Origin: Nitrososphaerota archaeon
Lineage (GTDB): Archaea > Thermoproteota > Nitrososphaeria > Nitrososphaerales > Gagatemarchaeaceae
Assembly: GCA_029785085.1 (NCBI GenBank)
Contig: JAFMAI010000005.1
Coordinates: forward strand, 1-64,000
Length of the DNA: 64,000 bases
Reading direction: 5' to 3'
Numbering within the stretch: the stretch's first letter is position 1; each line of letters starts with the position of its first letter. Of the stretch, positions 28,493 to 44,165 are shown piece after piece. Both the position numbers and the translations under genes were made by a program. The notes under the pieces are model-generated. The model did not search any database, had not been told where the DNA came from, and saw only the letters and a list, made by a program, of their open reading frames with translations.

Positions 28493-29704
28493 CTACAGCA
28501 CTTCGGCCAGCAGCTTCTTCGTGTCTTGTATCGTCTCGATTAACCTGGAGGTGAACCGCGCCGCGTAGGCGCCGTCCATCACCCTATGGTCGAATGAAAG
28601 AGACAGGTAGGTGGTGTCTCGGACCTCTATCTTGCCGTCACGGACGACCGGCCTCTTTGCGATCTTGTGAAGACCCAGGATGGCGGCTTCGGGAAGGTTG
28701 ATGATGGGAGTGGCGAAGAGCCCCCCTATCGCTCCCACGTTGGTGATGGTGAAAGTCGACCCCCGGACGTCGTCAAGGCCGAGCTGGCCGGTCCTAGCCT
28801 TCTCTGAGAGATTCGTTATCTCCCCAGCAAGTTCGAAGATGTCTTTCCTGTCTACGTCCTTCACCACAGGAACAACCAAGCCTTGCGCAGTGTCGGTGGC
28901 AATGCCGATGTTGTAGTACTTCTTCAGGGCGATGTTCCCGGCATGCTCGTCCAGAGACGAGTTGACGTAGGGGAACTCCTTGAGCGCGGGGACCAACGCC
29001 TTGATGATGAATGGAAGGTAGGTGAGGCGGACCCCTCTCTTCTCTGCGCTCCCCCTGAATGCCTCTCTCAGGAGCACGAGTTCTGTCATGTCTGCCTCGT
29101 CGACATGGGTGACCTGGGCGGTAGTCCTCAGGGACTTCACCATCCTGTCAGATATGGTCCTCCTCAGCCCCCTCAGAGGGACCAACTCTTCCTTTGGCCC
29201 CCCGCTGGTGAGATGGGGCTCCTGGACGGTCGCCTCTTGCGGAGCTGCTTTCAGGTCAGACTTTCTTATGTCGTCGTCGGTCACCCTGCCCTGAGGCCCT
29301 GACCCGCGAACCCTCGTGATGTCCACCCCAAGCTCTCTGGCAAGCTTCCGGGTGGCCGGGGTAGCGAGGACTGACTGAGCAGCCGTTGGAGGAGCGGGCT
29401 GGACCTGGACTGCCGCCTGGGCCGGAATTTGTTTAGGAGGCGTCGCCATAGTAGCAGTCGGAGCCCCCGCAGCCCCATCGTCGATTACTAGTATCGTCTG
29501 GCCGACCTTCGCGACATCTCCTTCCTTCACAAGCACCTTGGACACCCTCCCACTCCTGGGTGAAGGGATCTGGACGTTCACTTTGTCGGTCATGACCTCG
29601 ACGATGGGCTGGTCCTCCTTAATCTGGTCCCCCTCCTTCACCATCCACTTGAGAACCTCCCCCTCGGTGATTCCTTCGCCCAGATCGGGTAGCTTGAAGT
29701 CCAT
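28493..29704 (-). CDS. Dihydrolipoamide acyltransferase (E2) of a 2-oxoacid dehydrogenase complex
   Basis: 403 residues in three parts. There is one N-terminal lipoyl domain with the lipoylated lysine in VMTDKVNVQIPS, then a flexible Ala/Pro linker leading to a peripheral subunit-binding domain (ATRKLARELGVDITRVRGSGPQGRVTDDDI), and a C-terminal acyltransferase core ending with SFDHRVMDGAYAA, which holds the catalytic histidine and aspartate. It forms the core of the complex. The acyl group cannot be fixed: pyruvate or branched-chain oxoacids are both possible. Confidence 0.92.
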   Translation of the reverse strand: MDFKLPDLGEGITEGEVLKWMVKEGDQIKEDQPIVEVMTDKVNVQIPSPRSGRVSKVLVKEGDVAKVGQTILVIDDGAAGAPTATMATPPKQIPAQAAVQVQPAPPTAAQSVLATPATRKLARELGVDITRVRGSGPQGRVTDDDIRKSDLKAAPQEATVQEPHLTSGGPKEELVPLRGLRRTISDRMVKSLRTTAQVTHVDEADMTELVLLREAFRGSAEKRGVRLTYLPFIIKALVPALKEFPYVNSSLDEHAGNIALKKYYNIGIATDTAQGLVVPVVKDVDRKDIFELAGEITNLSEKARTGQLGLDDVRGSTFTITNVGAIGGLFATPIINLPEAAILGLHKIAKRPVVRDGKIEVRDTTYLSLSFDHRVMDGAYAARFTSRLIETIQDTKKLLAEVL

Positions 29705-29855
29705 CCGACGCCAAAGGAGCGGACGGGGGTTAAAAACTATGTAGCGTCATTCGTGTTTGATGTCGTCTGCAGGGAACATCCCGGTGGCCTGCCGCGTGCT
29801 ATGGTCCGTGGAGCGACCGCCAAGGGTCCGCCGACCCGGCGTCTCTCGGAAGGAC

Positions 29856-32009
29856 TCAGTAGTTGATTAGCTCTAGTGCAGCCTTTGCTATCCTTTCCTT
29901 GTTCGGGATGTAGCTGTCCTCGAGCTTTGCCAGAGGTATGGGAATGTCGTAACCGGTTACCCTCTTGATTGGAGCCCTCAGGTAGTCCAGGGCCATCTCA
30001 GCCACCGTAGCCGCGACCTCTGCGCCAATGCCGGAATTGCGTGGGGCTTCGTGGATGACGATCAGTCGTCCAGTCTTCTGGACCGACTCGACAACAGTCC
30101 CGAAGTCGATGGGGGAGACGGTTCGCAAATCCACCACCTCGGCCGAGACCGACCGCTCGTTCTGGAGCGCTTCCGCCGCCTGGTTGGTAGGGACCATCAT
30201 CGCGCCGTATGAGACGAGGGTGACATCTTTCCCCTCTCTGACCACTCTTGCTTTGCCTATGGGGATACGGTACTCCCCCTCCGGGACTTCGGCTTTCGGG
30301 GAGTCGTAGATCTTCTTGGGTTCCATGAACACCACGGGGTCTGGGTCGGTCAGCGCTGATGTGAGGAGGCCCTTGGCGTCGTAGGGGGTCGATGGAATCA
30401 CGACCTTCAGGCCCGGCGTGTGGGCGAAGTAGGCTTCCGGGGACTCCGAGTGGAGCTCTGGCGGCCTTATCCCGGCGCCATAGGGGAAGCGTATCACCCC
30501 TCTGAGGGCGAACCTCCCCCTCGTCCTGTTCCGCATTCTGGCTATGTGGCTGAAGATCTGGTCGAAGGCAGGAACCGTGAAGCCGTCGAACTGGAATTCG
30601 GCTACGGGGACCATGCCACCGATGGAGAGACCGACGAATATGCCGGCAATGCTGAGCTCGGCCAGAGGGGTGTCGAACACCCTGCTGGGACCGAACTCGT
30701 CAAAAAGCCCGCGCGTCACCTGAAAGACGCCGCCGTTCTTGGCCACGTCCTCCCCGAATAACACCATCTTCCCGTCCCGCTGCAGTCCTTCTCTGAGGGC
30801 CATATTGACTGCGTTCCTGATGTTGACGCCAGGCTTCCCTCCGGGGGCGGCCGTGGGTTCAGGCTTCGAAAGGACCGGGCTAATCTGCTCTCCTAGGAAC
30901 TCCGCCTTCTCTCTGGCGAGGATGGGGGTAAGCGAAGAGTACGTGTAGTCGAAAATCACCCAGGGGTCGGCTGGTGGCATCCCCCTGTAAGCCGCGACGG
31001 CCTCGTTCATCTTCTCCTGGGCGGCGGCAGCTACGGCTTCCTTCGCGCTCCCGTCCAGCAGGCCCCGGGACGTCAGGTACTTCTCGAACCTGACGATGGG
31101 ACTCCTCCGCTCCCACTTCACGACCTCGTCCGGCGCTTTGAGCTTGTTGGACACCAACTCGGCTGTAGTATGAGGGCCAAGGCGGTAGGTGGAGTACTCT
31201 ATCAGAGTGGGGCCCCCGCCTCGTCTGGCTTTGTCGACTGCGTACTTGGTGGCCTCGTAGGAGGCGATCACGTCGTTGCCGTCGACAAGTATGCCTTCGA
31301 AACCATAGGCCACGGCCTTCTGGGCGATGGTCTTCGATGCAGTCTGGGCTCCTCTCCTGATTGAGAGCGCCCACTGGTTGTTCTCCACCCCGAACACCAC
31401 GGGCAGGTCATAGACCCCGGCTATGTTCATGGACTCGTGGAAGTCTGCCTTGGAGGTGCCTCCGTCCCCGGTGACCACGAACACCACTGATTTTTCCCCC
31501 TGTAGGCGCTTTGCCATCGCGAGCCCCGCTGCGTGAGGGAGCTGCGTGGCCACTGGCACTGCGATGGGGAGCATGTTCAGGCCCTCAGGCATCTGCATTC
31601 CCCTCTCGTCCCCACCCCAGTATTGCAGTAGTTTGGCCGGAGGCATCCCGAAGGCGAGCATTCCAGCCGAGTCTCTGTACATGGGGACATACCAATCGTC
31701 TTGCTCCAGGGCGTCGACCGGTCCGATTTGAGCCGCCTCCTGGCCTTTGCCTGGCGCATAGGTCCCAATCTCCCTGAGGGTTGAGAGGTTGGTCGCCTTG
31801 TCGTCGAATAGGCGGCCGAAGACCAACTGCTCGTACATCCGTCTCAAGGTCTCCGGTGACAGATTGGGATCTTTCCCCCTGATGGTCCCGTCAGGGGACA
31901 GCCTCTGGAAGAGGAAATCCTCAGGAGTAGCGTAGTTGAACTCTGACTCGCTAAAGACTCGGGGACCTATCTCCGAGTCGGATCTCTTCATGGAGTCGAC
32001 TTCGGTCAA
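29856..32009 (-). CDS. 2-oxoacid dehydrogenase E1, fused alpha and beta subunits
   Basis: 717 residues in one chain. The first about 375 are E1-alpha (VVTGDGGTSKADFHESMNIAGVYDLPVVF holds the thiamine-diphosphate motif; NNQWALS follows). A short Pro/Gly linker (EPTAAPGGKPG) leads into E1-beta (LFGEDVAKNGGVFQVT, VAEFQFDGF, HSESPEAYFAHTPGLKVVIPS). Most archaeal and bacterial complexes of this heterotetrameric type encode the two subunits separately. It decarboxylates pyruvate or a branched-chain oxoacid and passes the acyl group to E2. It lies 3 bases after lipA. The 151 bases between E1 and E2 hold no other gene that I can see. Confidence 0.92.
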   Translation of the reverse strand: MTEVDSMKRSDSEIGPRVFSESEFNYATPEDFLFQRLSPDGTIRGKDPNLSPETLRRMYEQLVFGRLFDDKATNLSTLREIGTYAPGKGQEAAQIGPVDALEQDDWYVPMYRDSAGMLAFGMPPAKLLQYWGGDERGMQMPEGLNMLPIAVPVATQLPHAAGLAMAKRLQGEKSVVFVVTGDGGTSKADFHESMNIAGVYDLPVVFGVENNQWALSIRRGAQTASKTIAQKAVAYGFEGILVDGNDVIASYEATKYAVDKARRGGGPTLIEYSTYRLGPHTTAELVSNKLKAPDEVVKWERRSPIVRFEKYLTSRGLLDGSAKEAVAAAAQEKMNEAVAAYRGMPPADPWVIFDYTYSSLTPILAREKAEFLGEQISPVLSKPEPTAAPGGKPGVNIRNAVNMALREGLQRDGKMVLFGEDVAKNGGVFQVTRGLFDEFGPSRVFDTPLAELSIAGIFVGLSIGGMVPVAEFQFDGFTVPAFDQIFSHIARMRNRTRGRFALRGVIRFPYGAGIRPPELHSESPEAYFAHTPGLKVVIPSTPYDAKGLLTSALTDPDPVVFMEPKKIYDSPKAEVPEGEYRIPIGKARVVREGKDVTLVSYGAMMVPTNQAAEALQNERSVSAEVVDLRTVSPIDFGTVVESVQKTGRLIVIHEAPRNSGIGAEVAATVAEMALDYLRAPIKRVTGYDIPIPLAKLEDSYIPNKERIAKAALELINY

Positions 32010-32012
32010 GGA

Positions 32013-32933
32013 CTACTTTCGGGGCCTGGCGCCCATATAAGAGTGGTGGGTTCTTGAGCCGTTTTTGATGGCTGTCCTGATGAAGAACTCCCCTGCTCGG
32101 TAGCTGCTCCTGACGAGAGGGCCCGAGGCCACATAGAGGAATCCAAGTCCTTCGCCTAGGGCCCGGTACCGTCCGAACTGCGCCGGGTCAACGTACTCTG
32201 CAACTTTCAGGTGACGGACTGAAGGGCGGAGATATTGCCCCACAGTGAGGAAGTCCACATCAGCGCGTCGCAGATGTGTCATCGCCTGGAAGACTTCTTC
32301 TTCCGATTCTCCAAGGCCGACCATGATTGACGACTTCGTATAGACGCGGCCGTCCAGCTTCTTTGCGTTTCTCAGTACCGACAGCGACTGCCAATAGTTC
32401 GCCCGGGGATCCCTGACCCTGCCTGTGAGAGAGATGGTAGTCTCGACGTTGTGGGCTATGACGTCAGGTCGGGCTTCGACCACCTCCCTCAGTCCGTCGA
32501 GCTCTCCCTGGAAATCTGGAATCAGAACTTCGACGAGCATCCCTGGGTTCTTCTCCTTAACGAGCCTGATTGTGCGGGCTATGTGAGACGCCCCGCCGTC
32601 TGGGAGGTCGTCTCTGTCCACTGAGGTCAGCACCACGTATGTCAGGCCCATTTGAGAGAGCGCGAACGCCACGTTCTCTGGCTCGAGCCCATCCAGAACG
32701 CCCCGAGGTTTTCCGGGTGTGACCATGCAGAACCTGCACGCACGCGAGCAGACATCCCCCATCAGCATTAGTGTGGCCGTCCCGCCCCCCCAACACTCCT
32801 GGACGTTCGGACAGTGAGCCTCCTCGCAGACTGTGTGAAGGTTCAGGCGGCTGAAGAGACCTTTCAGGTCACTGTAGCGCTCCCCTTCCGGAGGTTTGAC
32901 CGTGAGCCATCTGGGCTTCGGGCTGGCTAGCAA
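32013..32933 (-). CDS. lipA: Lipoyl synthase (radical SAM)
   Basis: 306 residues. It carries the two iron-sulfur motifs of LipA: the N-terminal auxiliary cluster CEEAHCPNVQEC and the radical-SAM motif CSRACRFCMV. A C-terminal serine motif (VRSSYRAGE) supplies the unusual ligand of the auxiliary cluster. It inserts two sulfurs into octanoyl-E2. It is two bases after the HTH regulator gene and three before E1, so regulator, cofactor enzyme and complex are one unit. Confidence 0.94.
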   Translation of the reverse strand: MLASPKPRWLTVKPPEGERYSDLKGLFSRLNLHTVCEEAHCPNVQECWGGGTATLMLMGDVCSRACRFCMVTPGKPRGVLDGLEPENVAFALSQMGLTYVVLTSVDRDDLPDGGASHIARTIRLVKEKNPGMLVEVLIPDFQGELDGLREVVEARPDVIAHNVETTISLTGRVRDPRANYWQSLSVLRNAKKLDGRVYTKSSIMVGLGESEEEVFQAMTHLRRADVDFLTVGQYLRPSVRHLKVAEYVDPAQFGRYRALGEGLGFLYVASGPLVRSSYRAGEFFIRTAIKNGSRTHHSYMGARPRK

Positions 32934-32935
32934 GT

Positions 32936-33370
32936 TCAGTTGCCGACTAGCAACTTCAGCCTGTCAAAATCCTTTACGGAGAATGTGCCTTCGCAGGCGT
33001 AACACCCTTCCACCTTGAATTCAGGTTCCAAGTCACCGTGAAGTATACACATCATCTTGTTGAAACGGATGTAGTCGAGCACTTCGGTCATCGACCGGAG
33101 CGCCTCCCTAGTGTCAGGTTGGTCCAAGGAAAGCTCCTTGGCGATCCCGTCCGCCGCCTTGACCACCGTCGAATCCCCTTCGAGGTTCACCATTATCCCC
33201 CTCGTCTTCCTCGCGTAGTTGCTTACCGAGGCCTGGGTGACCCCGAGGCGCCTCGCGACTTCTTGCTGCGTGAGATGGTACTCCTCCTGCAGCCTCCTGG
33301 CCACCATAGCCCTGAGGGCGGGCAGAGCAGATTTCGCGACTATCTCATATGGGCTGATGAGTCGGGGCAT
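32936..33370 (-). CDS. XRE-type HTH regulator (COG2522-like) heading the lipoate/E1-E2-E3 operon
   Basis: 144 residues. Helix-turn-helix at about 27-55 (YHLTQQEVARRLGVTQASVSNYARKTRG), then a helical linker and a C-terminal part with three cysteines (MMCILHGDLEPE, EGCYACEG) that may bind metal or sense redox state. As first gene of the lipA-E1-E2-E3-lipB operon it is probably a local regulator, possibly autoregulatory through the palindrome at 33381-33394 that overlaps its own TATA-like box. Confidence 0.8.
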   Translation of the reverse strand: MPRLISPYEIVAKSALPALRAMVARRLQEEYHLTQQEVARRLGVTQASVSNYARKTRGIMVNLEGDSTVVKAADGIAKELSLDQPDTREALRSMTEVLDYIRFNKMMCILHGDLEPEFKVEGCYACEGTFSVKDFDRLKLLVGN

Positions 33371-33380
33371 CCGGTTTTCA

Positions 33381-33394
33381 ATAACTTATGTTAT
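33381..33394. promoter_or_regulatory. Palindrome overlapping the HTH gene promoter
   Basis: ATAAC-TTAT-GTTAT forms a 5-base inverted repeat with a 4-base centre, 11 to 24 bases upstream of the regulator ATG at 33370. It overlaps the likely TATA box (CTATAAC, minus strand, about 33390-33396), a natural place for an autorepressor. A separate plus-strand TATA-like box (CTATTTAAG, 33401-33409) follows. Confidence 0.5.
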
Positions 33395-33545
33395 AGTCTG
33401 CTATTTAAGGCGATATTCAGGGGACAGGTTCACTTCCGCCGACCGAGGGCTTTCGGCATTCGAATCTACCGCAAACTTATTGGATGAGACATGGGTCTTG
33501 TGCCAATTCTTGGCTTCGCACCCAGAAGACCCAGGGAGCAGAAGG

Positions 33546-36416
33546 GTGGTGCAGGAACAGAATGCTTTCCAGGCGCTGTCGCCTCCTCTCCTTGCAGCCT
33601 TGAAGGAGCGGGGCTTCGATTCCCCAACAGACCCTCAGGAGAGGTTACTCCCCATTATCAGCGAAGGGAAGAACGCCCTTCTCATGGCCCCTACCGGGAC
33701 AGGGAAGACTGAAGCAGCTCTGCTCCCGATCTTGGACGCGATCATTCGGGAGGGCGAATATAGGGAGAAAGGCACCAAGTTGCTGTACATCACGCCGCTG
33801 AGGGCCCTCAACAGGGATATGCTCGACCGGATGCAGTGGTGGTGCAAACGTTTCGACATCAGGCTCGGCGTGAGGCACGGGGACAGCAGCCAGGCAGAGA
33901 GGACCAATCTGAGCCTCGCCCCTCCTGACATACTCATCACCACCCCCGAAACCCTTCAGATCCTCCTCGTAGGAAGAAGAATCAGACAGAACCTGGCGAA
34001 GTTGAGGTGGGTTGTGGTGGACGAGGTTCACGAACTCTCGGAAGACAAACGCGGGGCCCAACTGAGCGTAGGTCTCGAGAGGCTGAGGGACGTGGCAGAA
34101 AAGGAGTTCCAGGTCATCGGACTGTCGGCCACGGTCGGCTCCCCGGAGAAAATCGCTCAGTTTCTAGTCGGGTCAGGGAGACGATGCGAAGTGGTGCGGG
34201 TCCCCGTAGAGAAGAGCTTGTCGTTGAGAGTGGAAGCGCCAAGGGCAACGGGAGACGACAGGATCCTCGCTGATGCAATCTACTCCTACCCCGAAGTCGC
34301 GGCGAGGCTCAGGACGGTAAGAGAGCTGGTTGAGAAGTACCGGTCCGTCCTCGTCTTCACAAACACCAGGTCGGAAGCAGAAGCCCTGTCGAGTCGTTTC
34401 AGAGTGTGGGACCCCAAGTTCGCTATAGCCGTCCACCACAGCTCTCTGTCCAAGGCTACCCGGGAGGCAGTCGAAAGAGGTCTCAAGGAGGGGAAGCTCC
34501 TGGGGGTCATCTGCACGAGCAGTCTCGAACTCGGGATAGACATAGGGTTCCTGGAGTACGTGGTCCAGTACAACTCACCGAGACAGGTAACCAGGCTGAT
34601 CCAGAGGGTAGGACGCAGCGGGCACAAGGTGGGCGAAGTCTCCAACGGGCTGGTAATCACCCAGGATTCTGACGACACGCTCGAAGCTGCTGTTCTCTGC
34701 AGGAAGGCAGTGATGGGCGAGCTAGAGCCTCTCGAGCCTATCTTCAACCCCTACGACGTCGCAATCCACCAGGTCTCTGGGCTTCTGATCGAGCAACCCA
34801 ATTGGAACTTCGACGATTTGGTGGCGCTCTTTAGGAGGAGCTATGCTTATGCAGAACTCGACAGGGAGAGGCTGAAGAAGACCCTCACGTACATGAGAGA
34901 GCGCTATCCCCGCCTGGCCTACTACAGCGAATCTGACGGCAAGGTGTTTCGGGCCAGGGACGTCAAGCCACTCTTCCAGTATTATTTCGATAACCTTTCG
35001 ATGATCCCCGACGAAAAGCAGTACTTGGTCATAGAGGGAGGGACATTCGTCGGCACCCTGGACGAGGCGTTCGTTTCAGAGTACGGGGAGGTCGGGGTCA
35101 AGTTCGTGGAAGCAGGGAGATGCTGGAAGATAGAACAGATCTATGGCAACAAGGTATACGTCAAATCAGAGGACGACCCTACAGGTGCCGTCCCCCACTG
35201 GGTGGGTGACGAGATACCCGTCCCGAGGGAGGTAGCGGCTGAGGTGGGGGCCCTACGTAGGAGATATGCCGAGGCGCTGGAGATGACGAAGGATGATGAG
35301 TACCTCGATGAGCTCATCATGACGTACCCGGTGCCGAAGGACACCATCAGGGAGGCGCTGAAGGAGGTCGCGGAGCAGCATGAGGCGAAGCTCCCCATAC
35401 CTTCTGAGAGGCTGGTCACCGTCGAGAAGTGGGACAAGTATGTTGTCATACAAGCAGCCTTCGGGCACAGGGTGAACAGGCTGCTCGCCCGGGTGATTGG
35501 ACACCTCATATCAGAGCAGATAGGCCAGTCGGTGGCCGTCCACCAGGACCCCTATAGGATAGTGATCGAGGCCGAGACAACCCCCGCTGCCGTCTTCTCA
35601 GTGATCGGGGAGCTCCACAAGCTCGACCTGAAGGCTACGACGGAAAAGGCCGTGGAAAGGAGTGGCATCTTCAAGCGTCGGCTCATCCACGCAGGCAAGA
35701 AGTGCGGCGCCATTGCCAAGGACGCAGATTATGGCAGCGTCTCCATTTCCGGGATAATCGAGGCTCTCCGGGACACCCCGGTGTATGAAGAAGCAATGAG
35801 CATGATATTCCACGACGACTTCGACATCTCCGGCGCGACGGACGTGGTGGAGAAGATTAACGCCGGAGCCATAGACGTGAAGCTGGTGGAATATGGAGGG
35901 CTCACCCCCATCGCCAGAATCGGAGTGGAAGAGATCAGCAGGAGAGGCGAGATAGTCTCGCCGGAGCGGCTCAGGGCGCTCCTCAAGCAGTCTACCAGAG
36001 CCAGAATCAACGAGACATTCGTCGTCGCGGTTTGCACCAGCTGCTGGAACTTCCTGGAGCTGAGGAAAGTCGCCGACCTCGACGCCCTCGATGCCTGCCC
36101 CGCGTGTGGGAAGCAGGCGCTAGGGCTCTCGACCGACTCCTACGAGAACGTCTTCTCGCTGGCCATGAAGGCGAGAAGCAGGGCCGCACTGACCGGAGCC
36201 AAGCTGAAGCTTGTGGAGATGCTCAAGAAGTCCTCTGAGCTCAGGAGGGAATACGGCCACGCCGCAGATGTGCTCATGGCCGGCAGAGGGATCAGGCTGG
36301 CAGAGGCCAGCGCGCTTGCTGCGAAGATGAGGAAGGAAGGGACAGACGTCGTAGAACTCGTCATCGAAGGGGAGAGGGAAGCACTGCGCAGGCGCTATTT
36401 CTTCGCCGCTTCCTGA
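33546..36416 (+). CDS. Lhr-type superfamily 2 DNA helicase (first of two)
   Basis: About 956 residues from the GTG at 33546. The frame is open back to 33219, but that part overlaps the divergent regulator gene and is not helicase-like. Motifs: Q-motif region GFDSPTDPQ, Walker A APTGTGKTEA, DEVH box VVDEVHEL, SAT in LSATVG, and motif VI LIQRVGRSGHKVG. A C-terminal zinc-ribbon-like pair (CTSC ... CPAC, near residue 868) follows the Lhr-specific winged-helix and beta domains. Lhr enzymes translocate 3' to 5' on single-stranded DNA and act in repair. Its end overlaps the convergent Nse3-like gene by 22 bases. Confidence 0.88.
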   Translation: MVQEQNAFQALSPPLLAALKERGFDSPTDPQERLLPIISEGKNALLMAPTGTGKTEAALLPILDAIIREGEYREKGTKLLYITPLRALNRDMLDRMQWWCKRFDIRLGVRHGDSSQAERTNLSLAPPDILITTPETLQILLVGRRIRQNLAKLRWVVVDEVHELSEDKRGAQLSVGLERLRDVAEKEFQVIGLSATVGSPEKIAQFLVGSGRRCEVVRVPVEKSLSLRVEAPRATGDDRILADAIYSYPEVAARLRTVRELVEKYRSVLVFTNTRSEAEALSSRFRVWDPKFAIAVHHSSLSKATREAVERGLKEGKLLGVICTSSLELGIDIGFLEYVVQYNSPRQVTRLIQRVGRSGHKVGEVSNGLVITQDSDDTLEAAVLCRKAVMGELEPLEPIFNPYDVAIHQVSGLLIEQPNWNFDDLVALFRRSYAYAELDRERLKKTLTYMRERYPRLAYYSESDGKVFRARDVKPLFQYYFDNLSMIPDEKQYLVIEGGTFVGTLDEAFVSEYGEVGVKFVEAGRCWKIEQIYGNKVYVKSEDDPTGAVPHWVGDEIPVPREVAAEVGALRRRYAEALEMTKDDEYLDELIMTYPVPKDTIREALKEVAEQHEAKLPIPSERLVTVEKWDKYVVIQAAFGHRVNRLLARVIGHLISEQIGQSVAVHQDPYRIVIEAETTPAAVFSVIGELHKLDLKATTEKAVERSGIFKRRLIHAGKKCGAIAKDADYGSVSISGIIEALRDTPVYEEAMSMIFHDDFDISGATDVVEKINAGAIDVKLVEYGGLTPIARIGVEEISRRGEIVSPERLRALLKQSTRARINETFVVAVCTSCWNFLELRKVADLDALDACPACGKQALGLSTDSYENVFSLAMKARSRAALTGAKLKLVEMLKKSSELRREYGHAADVLMAGRGIRLAEASALAAKMRKEGTDVVELVIEGEREALRRRYFFAAS

Positions 36417-36958
36417 GCTCGCGAGAGTATCAGCGTCATCAGGGTCTTCTCGTCCACTTCCGCCCGAGTCCTCCACCCTATGTGCATCATGGTCCTCTCG
36501 TCCTGCTCAAGGTAACCGCGTTTCACGTACCGGTCTAGCGAGTAGTCGACCCTCCATCTGGGGAACTTCTCCCTGAGAAATTGCTCGACCTCGCGCCTGG
36601 CGGCTCTGCCGGTCTTGGAGTTGACAAAGGCTATGGTGGCTGCGAGGACGGCCAAGTCGTCTATCCTGATCCCGGCCGTCTCCGCTTCGGTCACCGTGGG
36701 CGGATCCTTGAACCTCAGGAGGAAGCGGGAAGAGTCATCAGTCCCGTCTATCCCTTTGACCTCGAACACTTCGAGGCCCATGGGCGCCATGTCTTCGGAG
36801 AGTACTTCGATTATCTTGCGGTAGTCCCTCCCTAGGTGGCGTTTCATCTCCCACCCCTTGACCCCAGGGTTCCGCCCCCGCTGGAGAACCAATACTTGGA
36901 AAGCCCGCCTGACTTTCCTCTCGAGCAGCGCCCTGTCTGCGTTGTCTGACTCCGTCAA
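36395..36958 (-). CDS. Nse3/MAGE-like winged-helix protein (SMC-complex kite subunit)
   Basis: 187 residues, soluble. The N-terminal half (LERKVRRAFQVLVLQRGRNP, GWEMKRHLGRDYRKIIEVLSEDM, GLEVFEVKG) follows the pattern of the first winged helix of MAGE/Nse3 proteins. The second half (IDDLAVLAATIAFVNSKTGR, VEQFLREKF, LDRYVKRGYLEQ) follows the second winged helix and ends with MMHIGWRTRAEVDEKTLMTLI, which parallels the conserved Trp-Gly-x-Arg-Ala-x-x-Glu segment of eukaryotic MAGE domains. This is my reading by eye. The TTG start overlaps the Nse4-like stop by 4 bases, and the trio with the SMC ATPase is one operon. Confidence 0.65.
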   Translation of the reverse strand: MTESDNADRALLERKVRRAFQVLVLQRGRNPGVKGWEMKRHLGRDYRKIIEVLSEDMAPMGLEVFEVKGIDGTDDSSRFLLRFKDPPTVTEAETAGIRIDDLAVLAATIAFVNSKTGRAARREVEQFLREKFPRWRVDYSLDRYVKRGYLEQDERTMMHIGWRTRAEVDEKTLMTLILSRAQEAAKK

Positions 36959-37713
36959 CTCTCACCTGTGATTGATATTGCGACCGACTTCGGAATTCCC
37001 TTGGTCTTTTCGGTGAGGCCCATGGTCCATATTCTCCCAGTGAGTGGCTCGGTCTTCAGTAGAGCCCTCCCCTCGCTTATGAGGAAAGCGAGTAGGTATG
37101 CCCTTCTCACCTTGGTCTCGAAGCTTTCGCCCTCTATGAACTGGCGATAGTCGACCCAGTCTCCGTTGGACTTGGCCAGCAGCTCGTCATGTAGTTGCGT
37201 AAGCCCGACCTCGAACTGCTCCTTGGTGAATACCCCCAGGCTGACCAGGTCTGTGTACTCGGCGGTCCCGGGCCTGACGCCATAACTCCCGAACTGGTCC
37301 TTGAACCTCTCTGAAATCGGGACGAGCTCGCGCCAGTAGATGAAGGCCTTCTCCAGCCCCCTGGGGGACAGCTGGTCCACCTGGGCGATTGGATGCCAGC
37401 TCTTGACAAACGACTCCGTGAGGGACTCTTTGGACAGTAGCTTCACTTTGAGCTGAATCAGCAGAGGGTCGATGAAGAGGGCAGAAGCCCTGGACTTCAG
37501 CCACTGGTCCTGCAGCTTCACTATCTGCGCCAGCTCGAGCATCGCCTCCGAGTCCACGAGGAGTTCATCCAAGAGCTTGAGCTCCGGGAGCCTCTTCTTC
37601 AGTAGGAGTATCTTTTCCCTTATGTCCACGTCGAAGGGGTTGGCGCTGCTTGTCTCGACGTCTCGACATAGCTCAATCACCCTGAGATAGTCATCAAGCC
37701 TGGTCTGCTCCAT
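36955..37713 (-). CDS. Nse4-like kleisin candidate
   Basis: 252 residues, mostly helical. An N-terminal region with LLVDSEAMLELAQIVKLQDQ resembles the kleisin/Nse4 segment that binds the SMC neck. The C-terminal region (SFETKVRRAYLLAFLISEGRALL, residues 197-219, then GRIWTMGL) resembles the Nse4 C-terminal winged helix that contacts the SMC head. Gene order (ATPase, kleisin, kite) and one-base spacing from the ATPase gene support a complex. The similarity was judged by eye, so a different helical partner is possible. Confidence 0.6.
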   Translation of the reverse strand: MEQTRLDDYLRVIELCRDVETSSANPFDVDIREKILLLKKRLPELKLLDELLVDSEAMLELAQIVKLQDQWLKSRASALFIDPLLIQLKVKLLSKESLTESFVKSWHPIAQVDQLSPRGLEKAFIYWRELVPISERFKDQFGSYGVRPGTAEYTDLVSLGVFTKEQFEVGLTQLHDELLAKSNGDWVDYRQFIEGESFETKVRRAYLLAFLISEGRALLKTEPLTGRIWTMGLTEKTKGIPKSVAISITGES

Positions 37714-37714
37714 G

Positions 37715-39721
37715 TTATTTCAGCTCTTTGACCTCCGACGAGCCGTGGACCGCCTGGACAGTAATGACGTGTGCGCTTCTGTCGAACACGGTCAGGATCG
37801 ATGGGGTAATCACGATGTACTGCGACGCCTCCCTCTGTTTCATCTGCGAGAGAATCATCTTGAACATCGCTTCCCTGTTCTTGGGGTCCATGTGTATGTC
37901 GAACTCATCCATTGCTCTCAGGGGAGAGACTATCCTCGCCTGCAGAGACAGGATGAAAGCCATCAGAGCCACCGACCTCTCCCCACCGCTCTGGGTGAAC
38001 GGGTCGAGGGTTGTAGGAGCGCCGCCTCTGAACCCGACATACAGGTCGAGGCCGGCGTCTTCTATCGTATCCGCCTGCTCGAGCTTGACGAAGCCGCTGG
38101 CGTCCGCTGCCGACAGGACTACCTGGTAGGGCGGGTCGACAGCCTCGACGAGGTCTTCCATCGCCTTCCGCCAGACGCCCTTGCGTGAATCCAGCTCGGA
38201 GAGCATGAACTTCTTGTTATCTTGCAATTTGGCGAGCTTCACTTTCAACTCCTCGATGTTGCCCGAATAGTCGTTGTAGATTTTTTCAGCGTCGTCTGGA
38301 ACATCCTGCATCCTTTGGATGTGCGCTGACACGAGCTTCAGCTCTTCTGAGACCTCGTACGGCTGGCGAGCGGTCTCCATCCTGGACCCCGCCCGTTCCA
38401 GGTCCAGGGCCATTTTGTCGAGCTCGGCCTTGTACTCCCGGGCCGTCCTCTCGAGGTCGCGGAGGTCTGACTCGGTGACCCTGATACGATACGAAAGGAC
38501 CTCCGCCTTGACCTTGAAGGAGATGTGGCTGTCGGTTGTGCTCCTGATCACGTCCTCCATCTTGGTAATCTCAGGCTGCAGAGAAGAGACTTCCCTGTCT
38601 AACTCCGCCTTGCGGCGCCCGGCGTCCTCTTCGGCTGACGAGCTCTTTTGTTCTATGTAGACAGCGAGCTCTTTGAGCCTCTTAGCGTTCTTGTCGCCTC
38701 CCTTGGACAGGAGTTCGTCAATGGTGCTTGACAGTCCTAGGAGGTCTTCTTTTATCGAGCGATAGGCGTTGCGCGCTGACTCGTCCTTCGCCTTCTCCGA
38801 CTCGGCTCTAACCAGGGCGTAGTAGAGCTTCCGCAGCTCCACCTGCTTGTCCATGAGGGTCTGATGGGTGTGCTCTGCGTCTGATGATACCTCCGCCTGC
38901 TGTGACTTCAGGTCGTCCAAGGCCCTGGACTTCGACGAAATCTTCTCCTCAGCCACCTGCAGAGACTTGCTGAGCCTTCCTTCGGTGCTCCAGAGGAGCT
39001 CCTTCGACAGGAGGTCCCTGTGCTCGATGAGCCTCCGTTTCTCCTGGTAGCGGTCGTAAATCTGCTTCCAGTACTCAAGGGCCTGGTTAGCGTTGTCCAT
39101 GAGCTGGAGGAGAGAGCTCTCTTCGCCTACCAGCCCGCTCAGCTCCTGCTCGGCCGATATGATCCTTTGTCTGTACTCTAAGAATCCGACGGCCTCCTCC
39201 ACCATCCTCAGCCGTTCCTGGGGCGTGACGGCGCCCAGTTCCTCTATCATACCCTGGTGCATGATGATGAGCAGGTTGTCAGGATTGATTCCGAACTCAC
39301 GGAGGAGCCTCACAACCTCGCTCTTGTCAATCTCCTTGTAGTCGGCCTCGAACCAGTACGACCCGTCGCGCCTCAGATATCTGCTGAGCATGAAGGTGTC
39401 AGACTTTGAGTATGGTATTGGTCGCAGCCCAGCCTTCTGGGAGTTGTCGAAGACAAGCGAGACACGGGCGATCTCCTTCCCGCGTCTGATGAGGTCCGAA
39501 AGCTTCCTTGACCTTTCGGTGTACGCCTGTCCGAAGGCCACGGAGATAGCCAGGAGAACGGACGACTTTCCGGCTCCGTTGGGGCCGACGATGAGGTTCA
39601 GCCCCTCACGGAGGGGGATTCTTGCGTACTCGTAACTCATGAAGTTCTCTAGTATGATTTCTTTTACTGTAGTAAGATGAGACGGCCTCTCCTGGGAGGC
39701 CTCCCTGACGCCTTGGGACAA
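37715..39721 (-). CDS. Compact SMC/Rad50-like ATPase, Smc5/6-like head
   Basis: 668 residues, about half the length of ordinary SMC proteins. Head: IILENFMSYEYARIPL, Walker A GPNGAGKS (46-53), HQGMIEELGAVTPQERLRMVEEAVG; signature QSGGERS (577-583); Walker B region PLRAMDEFDIHMDPKNRE with MDEFD at 604-608, then YIVITPS. The DEFD-x-x-MD-x-x-NR and TP-S pattern is close to Smc6. Between about 190 and 530 the chain is coiled coil with no visible glycine-rich hinge and no zinc-hook CxxC. It should bind and organise DNA with its two partners. It diverges from the second Lhr gene. Confidence 0.85.
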   Translation of the reverse strand: MSQGVREASQERPSHLTTVKEIILENFMSYEYARIPLREGLNLIVGPNGAGKSSVLLAISVAFGQAYTERSRKLSDLIRRGKEIARVSLVFDNSQKAGLRPIPYSKSDTFMLSRYLRRDGSYWFEADYKEIDKSEVVRLLREFGINPDNLLIIMHQGMIEELGAVTPQERLRMVEEAVGFLEYRQRIISAEQELSGLVGEESSLLQLMDNANQALEYWKQIYDRYQEKRRLIEHRDLLSKELLWSTEGRLSKSLQVAEEKISSKSRALDDLKSQQAEVSSDAEHTHQTLMDKQVELRKLYYALVRAESEKAKDESARNAYRSIKEDLLGLSSTIDELLSKGGDKNAKRLKELAVYIEQKSSSAEEDAGRRKAELDREVSSLQPEITKMEDVIRSTTDSHISFKVKAEVLSYRIRVTESDLRDLERTAREYKAELDKMALDLERAGSRMETARQPYEVSEELKLVSAHIQRMQDVPDDAEKIYNDYSGNIEELKVKLAKLQDNKKFMLSELDSRKGVWRKAMEDLVEAVDPPYQVVLSAADASGFVKLEQADTIEDAGLDLYVGFRGGAPTTLDPFTQSGGERSVALMAFILSLQARIVSPLRAMDEFDIHMDPKNREAMFKMILSQMKQREASQYIVITPSILTVFDRSAHVITVQAVHGSSEVKELK

Positions 39722-39838
39722 GCTTCGAGCCTCCGCGGGCTTGTCGCGCTTTTAGCCATTACCCCTTGGGAGGGCACTATTCAGTTTCACCGACCCCCCT
39801 CCGGTGACACCTTAAATCGGCGAGCACCGCTCTCAGAA

Positions 39839-42685
39839 GTGTTGCCTGCTCAGTCTGCGTTCGAAGCGCTCGCTCCGGCCGTGCGGGGGTTTCTAGCAGA
39901 CACAGGGATGGTTGAACCCACGCCTCCCCAGGTCGAGGCATGGCCCCTCGTCTCGCGGGGAGCAGACGTACTCGTGGTTGCACCCACCGGGTCTGGGAAG
40001 ACCGAAGCCGCAATTCTACCGCTGTTGAGTAGGCTGGTGTCAGAGGGGCACGGGGATGGGATATCTTTGCTGTACATCACCCCGATGCGAGCCCTGAACC
40101 GCGACATGCAGAGGCGACTGCAGGCATGGTGCACCAGACTCGGGCTCACGGTGGACATCAGGCATGGAGACACCCCCCAATCCCAGAGGGCGAAGCAGTC
40201 AAGCCACCCCCCAGACGTCATGGTCACGACCCCAGAGACGCTTCAGGCAATACTCCCAGGGCGAAGGATGCGAGACAACCTGTCACCGCTGAAGGCTGTG
40301 GTGGTGGATGAGCTCCACAACCTAGTAGAAAGCAAACGAGGGGTGCAGCTCTGTGTAGGACTGGAGCGGCTGAGGAAGGTTGCCCCGAAATTCCAGCTGG
40401 TCGCGCTCTCTGCCACCATCGGGACACCGGCTGTGGCTGCCAAGTTTCTCTTCGGGGAGAGGGAAGTGAAGATTGTGAAAGCAGATGCACCCAAGGAGTT
40501 TGCCTACGCCATAGAGTATCCTGTGCCCGATCCAGCGAGCCAATCTGCGGCCAAGGAGACGTACTCTGCACCTGACTTGGCGGCCAGACTCGCCAGAATC
40601 AATTCCCTGATCGACGGCCATGTGTCCACCCTCATCTTCGTCAATAGCAGGACGCTCGCCGAGATGCTGGGGGAGAAGCTGGCGAGGCTCAGGAAAGACG
40701 TTGGAGTCCACCATGGTTCCCTCCCCAGAGAAGAAAGAGAGCGGGTTGAACAGGCATTCAAAGCCGGAGAGCTGAAGGCCCTGGTCTGCACCAGCACCCT
40801 GGAACTGGGCATCGACGTAGGGTCGGTTGATCTGGTGGTCCAATACATGTCACCAAGGCAGGTGACCAGTCTCGTGCAGCGCGTCGGCAGGAGCGGCCAC
40901 CGGCTCGGCAAGGTCTCCAAGGGCGTCCTAGTTACCGTATCAGCGGATGACATTCTGGAATCGTCAGCCAGCATACGTTCTGCCGCCCAGAGGAAGATCG
41001 AGCCCACCAGGCCATATTCGAATTCCTTGGACGTCTTGGCCCACCAAGTTGCCGGCTATCTCATGGACTTCGAGACGATGGAAGCGGACACGATGCTCAC
41101 CGAGGTGAGGAAAGCGGAACCGTTCGAAAGCCTCTCCGATGACTCCTTCCTCCGGACCGTGAGCTTTCTGGCCGAGCTCCGGAAGCTCAGGTTCGACGGG
41201 AAGACGCTGTCCAGGACCAGGCTTACGCGGGAGTACTACTACGAGAACCTGTCAATGATCCCCGACGAGACGAGGTACCTAGTCGTGGACGTGTCGACCA
41301 ACCAGACAGTAGGGATACTGGGTGAAGAGTTCGTCCTTCTGAAGGCGAGGGTCGGCATTCATTTCGTAATCAAGGGACGAGTATGGCAGGTAGAGCAGAT
41401 AGCTGATGACAGGAAGATCTACGTGACCCCAGTGGAAGATCCACTCGCAGCCGTCCCCGGCTGGGATGGCGAGATGCTCCCAATCCCCTACGAACTCGCG
41501 AAAGATACAGGAAGGTTGAGGAGAGAAGTCTCAGAAGCGCTGGATGCCGGTCAAGACGCGGTCGAGACGGTCGAAGTGCACATCCCCGGGGACGCGGCCG
41601 CCCGCGCGCTCGTGGTGGACCAGATCGCGGAGCAGAAGAAGATGGGAGCGCCAGTCCCCTCGGACAGGCTGGTCCTCTTCGAAGGGTTCGGCCGGTATCT
41701 TGTAGTTCACCTCTGCTTCGGAGAGTCGATCAATAGGACGTTCGCCTACGTATTCGAAGAGATCCTGTCCAAGAAGGGGCTGGTGAGGGTCTGGTGGCTC
41801 GACGGATACAGGCTGCTGATGGAACTCACAGTGGAGACGGAGGAACTAGACCTGAAAGCCATCGCCAGAGGGCTGATGGGCATGGCACCGGATGAGTTCG
41901 AGAGGACCTACGCGGTAGCCGCCCAGAGGAACTTCCCGTTCCCAGCGAGGGTCAAATTCGTTGCGGAGAGGTTCGGGGCATTGAGACGAGGCAAGCTCAT
42001 CGCCCACCCCAACCTCTGCTCGCTCCCCACCCGCTTCGAAAAGACCCCGATCTTCGAAGAAGCCCTGCAGGAGACTGGGAGGGACCTCATCGACATGGAG
42101 CACTCGAAGGAGATCCTCGTGGCGGTTGCCGATGGCGAGGTTTCGGTAGAGACGTTCATGGCTGGCGAGAGGCCAACCCCCATCGCATACAGTCTCCTCT
42201 ACAGGTACCTGGAGGTGCCGGAGGCCGTAGCTCCAGATTCGCTTGGAAAGTCATCCTACCAGAGGATGAAGACGACCATATTCGGCGCCAGCGTGAGCCT
42301 CCTTTGTGTCAAGTGCGGCGGGGACCAGGGAGAGACGACGGTAGGCGAAGTCCCGGATGAGCCCAGATGTAGAAACTGCGGTTCGGGATTGCTGGCCCCC
42401 TGCTACTGGGGGACAGCCAAGCTGTCTGAACTGGTAAAGAGGAGAGAGGCCAAGGCGCAGCTGAACGAGGAGGAGCGGTCGGAGCTCTCACGAGCCAGGC
42501 GGGGAGCAGACCTCGTCTTGTCTTACGGCAAGAAGGCGGTCGTTGCCCAGACCGTTTATGGTGTTGGCCCCCAGACCGCATCTAGGATTCTGGCCGAGAT
42601 GCACGATGATGAGGAAGCATTCTACAGGGACCTTCTGGAAGCGAAGATCCGCTTCGTCACGACCCGCCAGTACTGGGGGAGCTGA
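39839..42685 (+). CDS. Lhr-type superfamily 2 DNA helicase (second of two)
   Basis: About 948 residues from the GTG at 39839. The frame is open back to 39677, but a TATA-like box (CTTAAAT, 39809-39815) lies 27 bases before the GTG. Motifs: TPPQVEAW, Walker A APTGSGKTEA, VVDELHNL, LSATIG and LVQRVGRSGHRLG. A C-terminal four-cysteine zinc ribbon (CVKC ... CRNC, about 825-850) and a helical tail (GVGPQTASRILAEM, helix-hairpin-helix-like) differ from the first copy. A helicase role in DNA repair is expected. It is followed by a protein of unknown function and a metallophosphoesterase on the same strand. Confidence 0.88.
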   Translation: MLPAQSAFEALAPAVRGFLADTGMVEPTPPQVEAWPLVSRGADVLVVAPTGSGKTEAAILPLLSRLVSEGHGDGISLLYITPMRALNRDMQRRLQAWCTRLGLTVDIRHGDTPQSQRAKQSSHPPDVMVTTPETLQAILPGRRMRDNLSPLKAVVVDELHNLVESKRGVQLCVGLERLRKVAPKFQLVALSATIGTPAVAAKFLFGEREVKIVKADAPKEFAYAIEYPVPDPASQSAAKETYSAPDLAARLARINSLIDGHVSTLIFVNSRTLAEMLGEKLARLRKDVGVHHGSLPREERERVEQAFKAGELKALVCTSTLELGIDVGSVDLVVQYMSPRQVTSLVQRVGRSGHRLGKVSKGVLVTVSADDILESSASIRSAAQRKIEPTRPYSNSLDVLAHQVAGYLMDFETMEADTMLTEVRKAEPFESLSDDSFLRTVSFLAELRKLRFDGKTLSRTRLTREYYYENLSMIPDETRYLVVDVSTNQTVGILGEEFVLLKARVGIHFVIKGRVWQVEQIADDRKIYVTPVEDPLAAVPGWDGEMLPIPYELAKDTGRLRREVSEALDAGQDAVETVEVHIPGDAAARALVVDQIAEQKKMGAPVPSDRLVLFEGFGRYLVVHLCFGESINRTFAYVFEEILSKKGLVRVWWLDGYRLLMELTVETEELDLKAIARGLMGMAPDEFERTYAVAAQRNFPFPARVKFVAERFGALRRGKLIAHPNLCSLPTRFEKTPIFEEALQETGRDLIDMEHSKEILVAVADGEVSVETFMAGERPTPIAYSLLYRYLEVPEAVAPDSLGKSSYQRMKTTIFGASVSLLCVKCGGDQGETTVGEVPDEPRCRNCGSGLLAPCYWGTAKLSELVKRREAKAQLNEEERSELSRARRGADLVLSYGKKAVVAQTVYGVGPQTASRILAEMHDDEEAFYRDLLEAKIRFVTTRQYWGS

Positions 42686-42721: not shown

Positions 42722-43405
42722 GTGGTACTAGCTGGAAAAGTATTCCTCGTGAGGGAGAACTATGAAATCGACACCCTCGCGGAGAAGCTGAAGGCGTTCA
42801 GGATTGAGACGGAGACGAGCGTAGAAGGGAAGGAGTTCAAGCTCGTATCGGAGATTACTGATCTGAGCGTGGGCAAAGGGTCCCTCGACGGGAAGTTCTC
42901 GTTCGATTCAGTCTTCGTCGTCCCTCACCGGGGGGAGTCGGTCCCCGTCCCGAGAACCTACGAGGCGCCTTTCACGTTCAGCATGCACAAAGACAGAATG
43001 TTCCTTGCTGTCTACGACAAGAAGACCAGGGCGAACAATATAGCCAATGAGATGAGCAAAGCAGTCTTCATGAGCCTGGGTCAGGTGGTCGAGGCAAGGA
43101 TAGATCCAGAGACGCTGCGGAAGTTTCATGAGGCAAACTTCGACGATACCAAAGTGATATTCTACTCCGACGTCGATCTGCCGAATATCACCAAGCTGTC
43201 CCTCTACGGGGCAGAACTAGGCAACACCAGCCTCTACACCGACTACCTTGCCCACGGGAAGCTGTGGTACATCGTCTTCAAGAGCAGAGAATATGGCTAT
43301 GTCTTCGGGCTCACGAGGAACTGCATTCTGACCGGGTTCAGCAAGATGGAACTTTCGGAGTTCAAGAACTTCGTGGGAAACCAGGTCCTCCCGCTGATAG
43401 CGTAG
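42722..43405 (+). CDS. Protein of unknown function between Lhr helicase and phosphoesterase
   Basis: 227 residues, GTG start, with no signal peptide or membrane helix. I do not recognise a family. The N-terminal part is beta-rich (FLVRENYEIDTLAEKL, FSFDSVFVVPHRGESVPV) and the middle reads EAPFTFSMHKDRMFLAVYDKKTRANNIANEMSK, then NFDDTKVIFYSDVDLPNITKLSLYGAEL. It sits 36 bases after the second helicase and one base before the phosphoesterase, so it is probably part of the same repair-type operon and may be a DNA- or complex-binding accessory protein. Confidence 0.6.
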   Translation: MVLAGKVFLVRENYEIDTLAEKLKAFRIETETSVEGKEFKLVSEITDLSVGKGSLDGKFSFDSVFVVPHRGESVPVPRTYEAPFTFSMHKDRMFLAVYDKKTRANNIANEMSKAVFMSLGQVVEARIDPETLRKFHEANFDDTKVIFYSDVDLPNITKLSLYGAELGNTSLYTDYLAHGKLWYIVFKSREYGYVFGLTRNCILTGFSKMELSEFKNFVGNQVLPLIA

Positions 43406-43406
43406 C

Positions 43407-44165
43407 TTGCTGAAGATAGTCCCCGGCGAGGCAGCCCTGGTGTTCTCCACAGCGGAGAACACGACCTTGCTAGTGTCAGACCTGCACCTCGGCCTGGAGA
43501 AAGAGATGGCGAAGAAGGGTTTTCGCCTCCCCGCTTATTCTGTGAAGATGGTGGAAAGGGTGAAACGCACGGCCGAGGGGCATGGGGCGACAAGGCTAGT
43601 GGTGCTCGGTGACGTCAAGCACACGGTAGGCAAAGTAGAAGATATTGACTGGGGCGTCGTCCCGTGGTTCTTCGACACCATGCTAGACATATTCGAGGTC
43701 GTGGAAGTGGTCCCCGGGAATCACGATGGGAACATAAGGACCGTCCTGCCTCCGCGAGTGCGACTGGACAAATCACAAGGGACAGTGCTTGGTCATGGGA
43801 GGACACGAATCGGCGTGGCCCACGGGCACGCCTGGCCCTCGCAGGAGGCAATAGCTACCAGGGAACTCGTGATAGGTCACTCTCACTTCACCTATGAGAT
43901 GCGCGACGCCCTGGGTGCTCGGACGAGGGAATCAGTGTGGGTTACTGCAGATTATGACGTCGCCAAGTTGATGGATGGAGCAGGGTACCCCTCGAAGGCC
44001 AAGGGGAAAGGCAGACTGACCGTCATGCCTCCATTCAATAGGCTGGTTGGCGGGCAGCCGATAAACAGGAGTAGCTCGTTCGAGTTCGGGCCGGTTCTAT
44101 CCTCGAGGTCTATAAGCCTCGAAGAGGCCGACATATTCCTGACAGACGGGACCCGGGTGACCTAG
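43407..44165 (+). CDS. Metallophosphoesterase (COG1407-type, Lhr-associated)
   Basis: 252 residues. The calcineurin-like motifs are complete: SDLHLG, LGDVKH, GNHDGN, GHGRTRIGVAHGHAWP and GHSH, together giving a two-metal site. Members of this group are often encoded next to Lhr or DNA ligase genes and are nuclease or phosphodiesterase candidates for DNA-end processing. It follows the unknown 227-residue protein with a 1-base gap and is convergent with thioredoxin. Confidence 0.85.
   Translation: MLKIVPGEAALVFSTAENTTLLVSDLHLGLEKEMAKKGFRLPAYSVKMVERVKRTAEGHGATRLVVLGDVKHTVGKVEDIDWGVVPWFFDTMLDIFEVVEVVPGNHDGNIRTVLPPRVRLDKSQGTVLGHGRTRIGVAHGHAWPSQEAIATRELVIGHSHFTYEMRDALGARTRESVWVTADYDVAKLMDGAGYPSKAKGKGRLTVMPPFNRLVGGQPINRSSSFEFGPVLSSRSISLEEADIFLTDGTRVT

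Follow-up and report, generated by a model that had tools for sequence, protein, structure and literature searches.

Three linked genes of Thermoproteota archaea probably encode a compact Smc5/6-type SMC–kleisin–kite complex

The DNA analyzed here, referred to as the window, is a stretch of 64,000 nucleotides from contig JAFMAI010000005.1 of a Nitrososphaerota archaeon (assembly GCA_029785085.1; 0.9 Mb, 66% complete). It contains three adjacent minus-strand open reading frames (ORFs) of 668, 252, and 187 aa, the first two separated by a 1-base gap and the last two sharing a 4-base overlap. These genes encode a compact SMC ATPase of the Smc5/6 type (37715..39721, minus strand; 668 aa, with a TTG start and no detectable hinge domain), a kleisin of the Nse4 type (36955..37713, minus strand; 252 aa, with an N-terminal helical domain, a linker, and a C-terminal winged helix), and a kite protein of the Nse1/Nse3 (MAGE) type (36395..36958, minus strand; 187 aa, with a tandem winged helix). 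A preliminary description of the same DNA had proposed an archaeal trio of this kind, and its gene coordinates and spacing were reproduced when the ORFs were checked. All the motifs that it quoted were also found, i.e., MDEFDIHMDPKNRE and ITPS in the ATPase, SFETKVRRAYLLAFLISEGRALL in the kleisin, and HIGWRTRAEVDEKTLMTLI in the kite. The three proteins could be aligned with their relatives over their full length down to ~20–40% identity.

We analyzed the family placement of the ATPase by searching the PDB. With the window ATPase as query, Smc5 (1.5e-29) and Smc6 (2.5e-22) preceded every other SMC. When a profile of the whole ATPase family was used (A5; 37 members of 581–701 aa), the 10 Smc5/6 chains among the PDB chains listed scored 174–223 bits, while Smc1–4 and bacterial chains scored 152 bits or less. 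Conversely, a control profile built from the ~1,190-aa canonical SMCs of these or related genomes (A6) matched full-length Smc1–4 chains at 198–343 bits, but Smc5/6 chains at no more than 63 bits, which is under some myosins. The profiles thus split cleanly both ways and place the ATPase in the Smc5/6 half of the SMC family. In a tree of the ATPase heads, Smc5 and Smc6 formed a pair (98/98) that joined the trio side amid poorly resolved trio branches, with the exact attachment of the pair supported at 45/28 only. Since the eukaryotic rows of this tree numbered only three and all had long branches, no finer reading was drawn from it. Together, the reciprocal profiles and the head tree bear out the earlier claim of an SMC ATPase of the Smc5/6 kind. 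The Walker B region, LRAMDEFDIHMDP (residues 601–613; 37883..37921, minus strand), which that description had called closer to Smc6 than to bacterial SMC, matches 'ALDEFDVFMD' and 'CLDEFDVYMD' of Smc6; by profile score, the family is about equally close to Smc5 and Smc6.

The other catalytic motifs of the ATPase comprise a Walker A, GPNGAGKS (residues 46–53; 39563..39586, minus strand), which is near-invariant across the 37 relatives, and an ABC signature, SGGER (residues 578–582; 37976..37990, minus strand), placed by alignment. In the family alignment, Walker A, SGGER, and the acidic residues of Walker B were invariant or almost so. The coiled-coil arms extend over about residues 195–535 (38117..39139, minus strand), with limits inferred from the alignment, and the arm tip (about residues 300–400) showed the lowest conservation and the most gaps. 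SMC_hinge was not among the 25 Pfam families listed (27 matched) for the 37 ATPase members; two canonical SMCs, analyzed as a hinge control, scored SMC_hinge at 8e-19 and 4e-18. A CxxC zinc hook, the mark of the Rad50 tip, was likewise absent from all 37 aligned members. Genomes carried one trio-type ATPase gene each, with no second distinct SMC that would represent a split into Smc5 and Smc6; the exception was G009, which had two trio-type copies in an assembly with 8% contamination. An Smc6-like RxET motif in the C-terminal arm was suggestive but not general in the family and was left unused.

The kleisin could be classified through its family. Alone, the window protein gave a weak match to the Pfam family Nse4_C (0.16), so the Nse4 assignment would fail on this one sequence. 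Across the family, Nse4_C matched 25 of 37 kleisin members (best 5.6e-9), and in a six-frame search of 151 genomes (E ≤ 0.01), every one of the 37 Nse4_C matches fell on the trio kleisin gene, four of them above the curated cut-off. In the window, the matching segment (residues 192–223; 37045..37140, minus strand) lies inside the C-terminal winged helix. The kleisin profile searched against the PDB placed Nse4 on top (2e-4), followed by EID3 (9e-4) and the N terminus of ScpA (0.003), while the ScpA profile itself gave no match on the trio kleisin. A predicted model of moderate quality (pLDDT 76, pTM 0.38) comprised N-terminal helices, a linker, and a C-terminal winged helix, and a fold search with it returned Nse4 of Smc5/6 first, then the ScpA C terminus and cohesin kleisins, none reaching 0.001. 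Of the known kleisins, Nse4 is thus the closest to the 252-aa protein; the Nse4-like subunit proposed earlier is therefore upheld by the Nse4_C matches and by the top rank of Nse4 in both the profile and the fold searches of the PDB.

We then examined the 187-aa protein, for which Pfam gave no significant match with the window sequence alone. Among the 37 kite members, seven matched the MAGE profile (best 3.6e-4) and one matched SMC_Nse1 (1.3e-3). In a whole-genome search with MAGE, 15 of the 18 matches fell on the trio kite gene, and the Pfam MAGE matches to kite genes covered profile positions 118–206; matches to the ScpB profile never fell on this gene. An AF2 model of the kite (pLDDT 88, pTM 0.74) consisted of two winged helices, and Foldseek against the whole PDB retrieved Nse1, Nse3, and MAGE-G1 first (3.6e-6 to 8e-5), followed by MukE, JetB, and ScpB. 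The second wing is followed by a conserved GWRTRAEVD motif (36428..36484, minus strand), and W162, R163, and E167 of its GWRTRAE portion were invariant in the kite alignment. The MAGE family carries Trp-Gly-x-Arg-Ala at the corresponding position. No RING profile was detected on the kite, and its two winged helices use up all 187 aa. Judged mainly by its modeled fold, the protein is a kite closest to Nse1/Nse3, as had been proposed from the Nse3/MAGE likeness, with MAGE matches that are weak by sequence. As a separate observation, kleisin matches in G045, G054, G070, G078, G116, G062, and G086 cross one in-frame stop (TAG/TAA), and some kite matches likewise contain apparent stops; these may reflect alignment past the true stop or a genuine feature.

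To describe how the three genes are inherited, we combined several searches. With the 252-aa protein as query, matches were obtained in 27 of 41 relatives, and the same three genes stood in the same order in all 28 loci. In a scan of genome contigs that reached essentially Thermoproteota alone, the kleisin profile was found in 157 of 398 Thermoproteota genomes, representing 78 of 163 genera; the trio was also carried by records titled Bathyarchaeota. A scan of viral contigs returned no relatives of the kleisin and weak matches of the ATPase, mostly at its N-terminal (Walker A) side, and a plasmid scan gave remote ATPase matches only. Among 151 genomes searched for all three genes, the ATPase was present in 70, the kite in 68, and the kleisin in 69. 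Thus, 67 of the 71 Thermoproteota genomes having any of the genes had all three, and the other 80 of the 151 had none. The incomplete trios were those of G074, G123, G175, and G102, the last two of which are at contig ends. In five genomes (G054 [L176], G077, G094, G124, and G045), the ATPase gene lay on a different contig or was oriented differently, yet it was retained, and where it had moved away, the kleisin and kite genes mostly remained adjacent. This co-retention even after relocation of the ATPase argues that the three genes form a functional unit rather than being chance neighbors. Separately, the trio was missing from all listed members of f10, a large family belonging to this order; its near-complete genomes measure 1.2–1.8 Mb, which makes them probably those of ammonia oxidizers, and the absence likely reflects loss in that lineage.

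The trio coexists in genomes with a canonical SMC and ScpB; ScpB was detected in 33 of the 41 relatives, often adjoining the canonical SMC gene. ScpA (PF02616) gave no match at 0.001 in these 41 genomes but was found in nine control genomes, and therefore the kleisin of the canonical SMC is divergent or absent there. Considering all the searches, we think it very likely that the trio forms a second, dedicated SMC–kleisin–kite complex of the Smc5/6 type, apart from the canonical SMC of the cell.

The genes on both sides of the trio include helicases. A gene for an Lhr-type, aLhr1-like helicase with a C-terminal Cys-rich motif (33219..36416, plus strand) is convergent with the kite gene and lies outside the operon; the 3' ends of the two genes overlap by 22 bases in the window and often by ~20 bases in relatives. 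A convergent Lhr helicase was present within 1.2 kb of the trio in 46 of the 66 loci with enough sequence, very divergent ones included, and was not found beside it in the other 20. A second Lhr-type helicase gene (39677..42685, plus strand), also encoding a C-terminal Cys-rich motif, is divergent from the ATPase gene; its true start probably lies downstream of 39677, and a second Lhr helicase upstream of the trio is a feature of the window's group. Beyond it are genes for a conserved 227-aa protein (42722–43405, plus strand) and a metallophosphoesterase related to PdeM and SbcD (43407..44165, plus strand). The window copy of the 227-aa protein had no Pfam match, and its profile had no PDB match. 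Its gene recurs beside the PdeM-like phosphoesterase and in front of the SMC gene, and in many cases no second helicase separates it from the latter. A C-terminal Cys-rich motif is also carried by the published aLhr1 group, and the accompanying survey of Lhr gene neighbors reports the phosphoesterase, with SMC not mentioned (PMC8301817). Archaeal Lhr is known to act on replication forks, and the DNA-repair context of the Lhr helicase family has been said to be not known (PMC7437997).

When compared with the core of eukaryotic Smc5/6 (Smc5, Smc6, Nse4, Nse1, and Nse3), the trio shares the ATPase head family, the kleisin type, and the kite type. It differs, however, in having one ATPase gene and one kite gene where Smc5/6 has two of each, in an ATPase of slightly over half the length whose hinge domain is undetectable, and in a kite without a RING; neither the Nse2 SUMO ligase nor Nse5/6 was recognized among the annotated neighbors of the trio. 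The canonical archaeal SMC–ScpA(–ScpB) system has the plan of SMC, kleisin, and kite in common with the trio, but its SMC is ~1,190 aa long with a hinge and an Smc1–4-type profile and its kite is of the ScpB type, and the trio differs in all of these. An assignment to canonical SMC–ScpAB was rejected on the lack of SMC_hinge, ScpA, and ScpB matches in the trio and on its ATPase profile, which falls on the Smc5/6 side. MukBEF and Wadjet (JetABC) are represented by MukE and JetB next to Nse1/Nse3 among the fold matches of the trio kite; their kleisin and kite profiles were nevertheless unmatched and their ATPases matched weakly, and the trio has neither an adjacent JetD nor a hinge. This assignment was also rejected, there being no MukF/JetA-type profile on the kleisin or kite and a weak JetC match (36 bits). 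ASRP, coalescin, and Sph are, like the trio ATPase, compact archaeal ATPases of the SMC superfamily, but the ASRP score of the trio was poor, and the ASRP survey reports no consistent gene neighbors for that family (PMC9389158). Finally, archaeal 'SMC5/6-related' SMCs likewise group with Smc5/6 in the SMC tree, and the trio ATPase probably belongs to the same family.

In Smc5/6, Nse4 reaches from the neck of Smc6 to the head of Smc5, and its linker is shaped by the kites (PMC7297730). A complex built by analogy from the trio would contain an ATPase homodimer, which we infer from the single ATPase gene. The N-terminal helices of the kleisin would sit on the neck of one ATPase and its C-terminal winged helix would cap the head of the other, while the kite, probably itself a homodimer, would bind the kleisin linker near the heads and aid the grip on double-stranded DNA. 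ATP binding would then unite the heads and clamp the DNA, and hydrolysis would free or move it. Since the arms span only ~150–190 residues and lack a hinge, distal ring closure is doubtful and clamping close to the heads likelier; the complex would thus probably be a short-range clamp shut by the kleisin, and perhaps by contacts at the arm tips, rather than a large loop-extruding ring. As for its job, the aLhr1-like helicase and phosphoesterase neighbors, together with the fork activity of Lhr, suggest that the complex may act on replication forks that have stalled or broken, holding or processing them with the aLhr1-like helicase, and perhaps with the PdeM-like nuclease. We regard this role as about an even proposition; it is deduced from guilt by association, with a helicase gene that is convergent and not co-transcribed with the trio.

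An Smc5/6-like complex might instead have the limiting of foreign or extrachromosomal DNA as its main task, and not fork repair. In bacteria, Wadjet restricts foreign DNA, and eukaryotic Smc5/6 acts against viral episomes; both act on circular foreign DNA, and the kite fold of the trio also matches JetB. However, the trio is a stable and broadly distributed chromosomal set whose adjoining genes are of the repair type rather than the defense type, a JetD-like nuclease gene was not found beside it, and PADLOC returned nothing for the kleisin or kite. The kleisin also had no viral relative, and the plasmid matches of the ATPase were remote only. On this evidence, a foreign-DNA role appears unlikely.

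The likeness to Smc5/6 could also have arisen by convergence in an independent archaeal offshoot of SMC–ScpAB or MukBEF, as might be argued from the match of the kleisin N terminus to ScpA, which is a general kleisin feature, and from a hinge-less SMC, which Smc5/6 does not have. This is very improbable, given ATPase profiles that split cleanly and reciprocally, matches to the Nse4_C and MAGE/Nse1 profiles but not to those of ScpA or ScpB, and the indication of Smc5/6 by all three separate subunits. Transfer of the trio into archaea from a eukaryote would explain why each of the three proteins resembles a eukaryotic subunit, but it fits poorly with a single ATPase, a single kite, and a missing hinge, or with the deep diversity of the trio (78 of 163 sampled genera), and it is the pair of Smc5 and Smc6 that branches at or within the archaeal diversity, not vice versa; we give it hardly any credence. 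Equally implausible is that the ATPase is a repair enzyme of the Rad50 or ASRP type and that its neighbors are unrelated to it. The size and short arms do resemble ASRP, and a phosphoesterase gene is close by, but the NCBIfam scores were 35 bits for ASRP (34.9, against a cut-off of 300) and 60 for Rad50, compared to 162 for SMC_prok_A, the CxxC hook is missing, and the ATPase is strictly co-inherited with the kleisin and kite.

Smc5/6 protects DNA in eukaryotic cells; among the SMC complexes of eukaryotes it is the one understood least, and where it came from is an open question. The preferred reading, a dedicated Smc5/6-type complex, also bears on this origin. The preliminary description had called the trio an ancestor or relative of the Smc5/6 core. 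Relative is appropriate, but the direction of descent is unproven; the tree fits eukaryotic Smc5/6 branching at or within the archaeal group. The presence of the three-gene set suggests that an Smc5/6 core existed in archaea before eukaryotes. Its remark that no description of the trio was known goes too far where the ATPase is concerned, since Yoshinaga and Inagaki (2021), as cited in PMC9389158, had named archaeal 'SMC5/6-related' SMCs. In its accessible portions, that 2022 paper treats the ATPase only and mentions neither the kleisin, the kite, the missing hinge, nor the helicase link (PMC9389158). Our literature search, outside which most subscription papers fell, likewise found no account of a kleisin or kite as partner of this ATPase, of its lack of a hinge, or of a connection to the helicase, and this coverage makes the result weak evidence of novelty. 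The ATPase alone is probably known, and more of the trio may already have been described. A study by van Hooff et al. (Cell Rep 2025) reportedly deals, judging by its title, with SMC evolution from archaea to eukaryotes. We propose only tentatively that the trio represents a complete, previously undescribed Smc5/6 core of Thermoproteota, which has three subunits, no hinge, a homodimeric ATPase, and a link to aLhr1-like helicases, and that the combination of kleisin, kite, and dedicated SMC was in place in archaea before the eukaryotic Smc5/Smc6 and Nse1/Nse3 duplications. A minimal archaeal version with three genes would allow the core mechanism to be tested free of Nse2, Nse5/6, and RING, and its missing hinge raises the question of whether head clamping of DNA, and not loop extrusion by a large ring, was the ancestral activity. 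Equally, the conserved link offers a candidate partner for the Lhr helicase family.

The DNA past the first helicase (28493–33370, minus strand) encodes a lipoyl synthase, a fused pyruvate-dehydrogenase-type E1 alpha/beta, an E2 acyltransferase, and a small HTH protein, and the order of the HTH, lipoyl synthase, and E1 genes is kept in close relatives.
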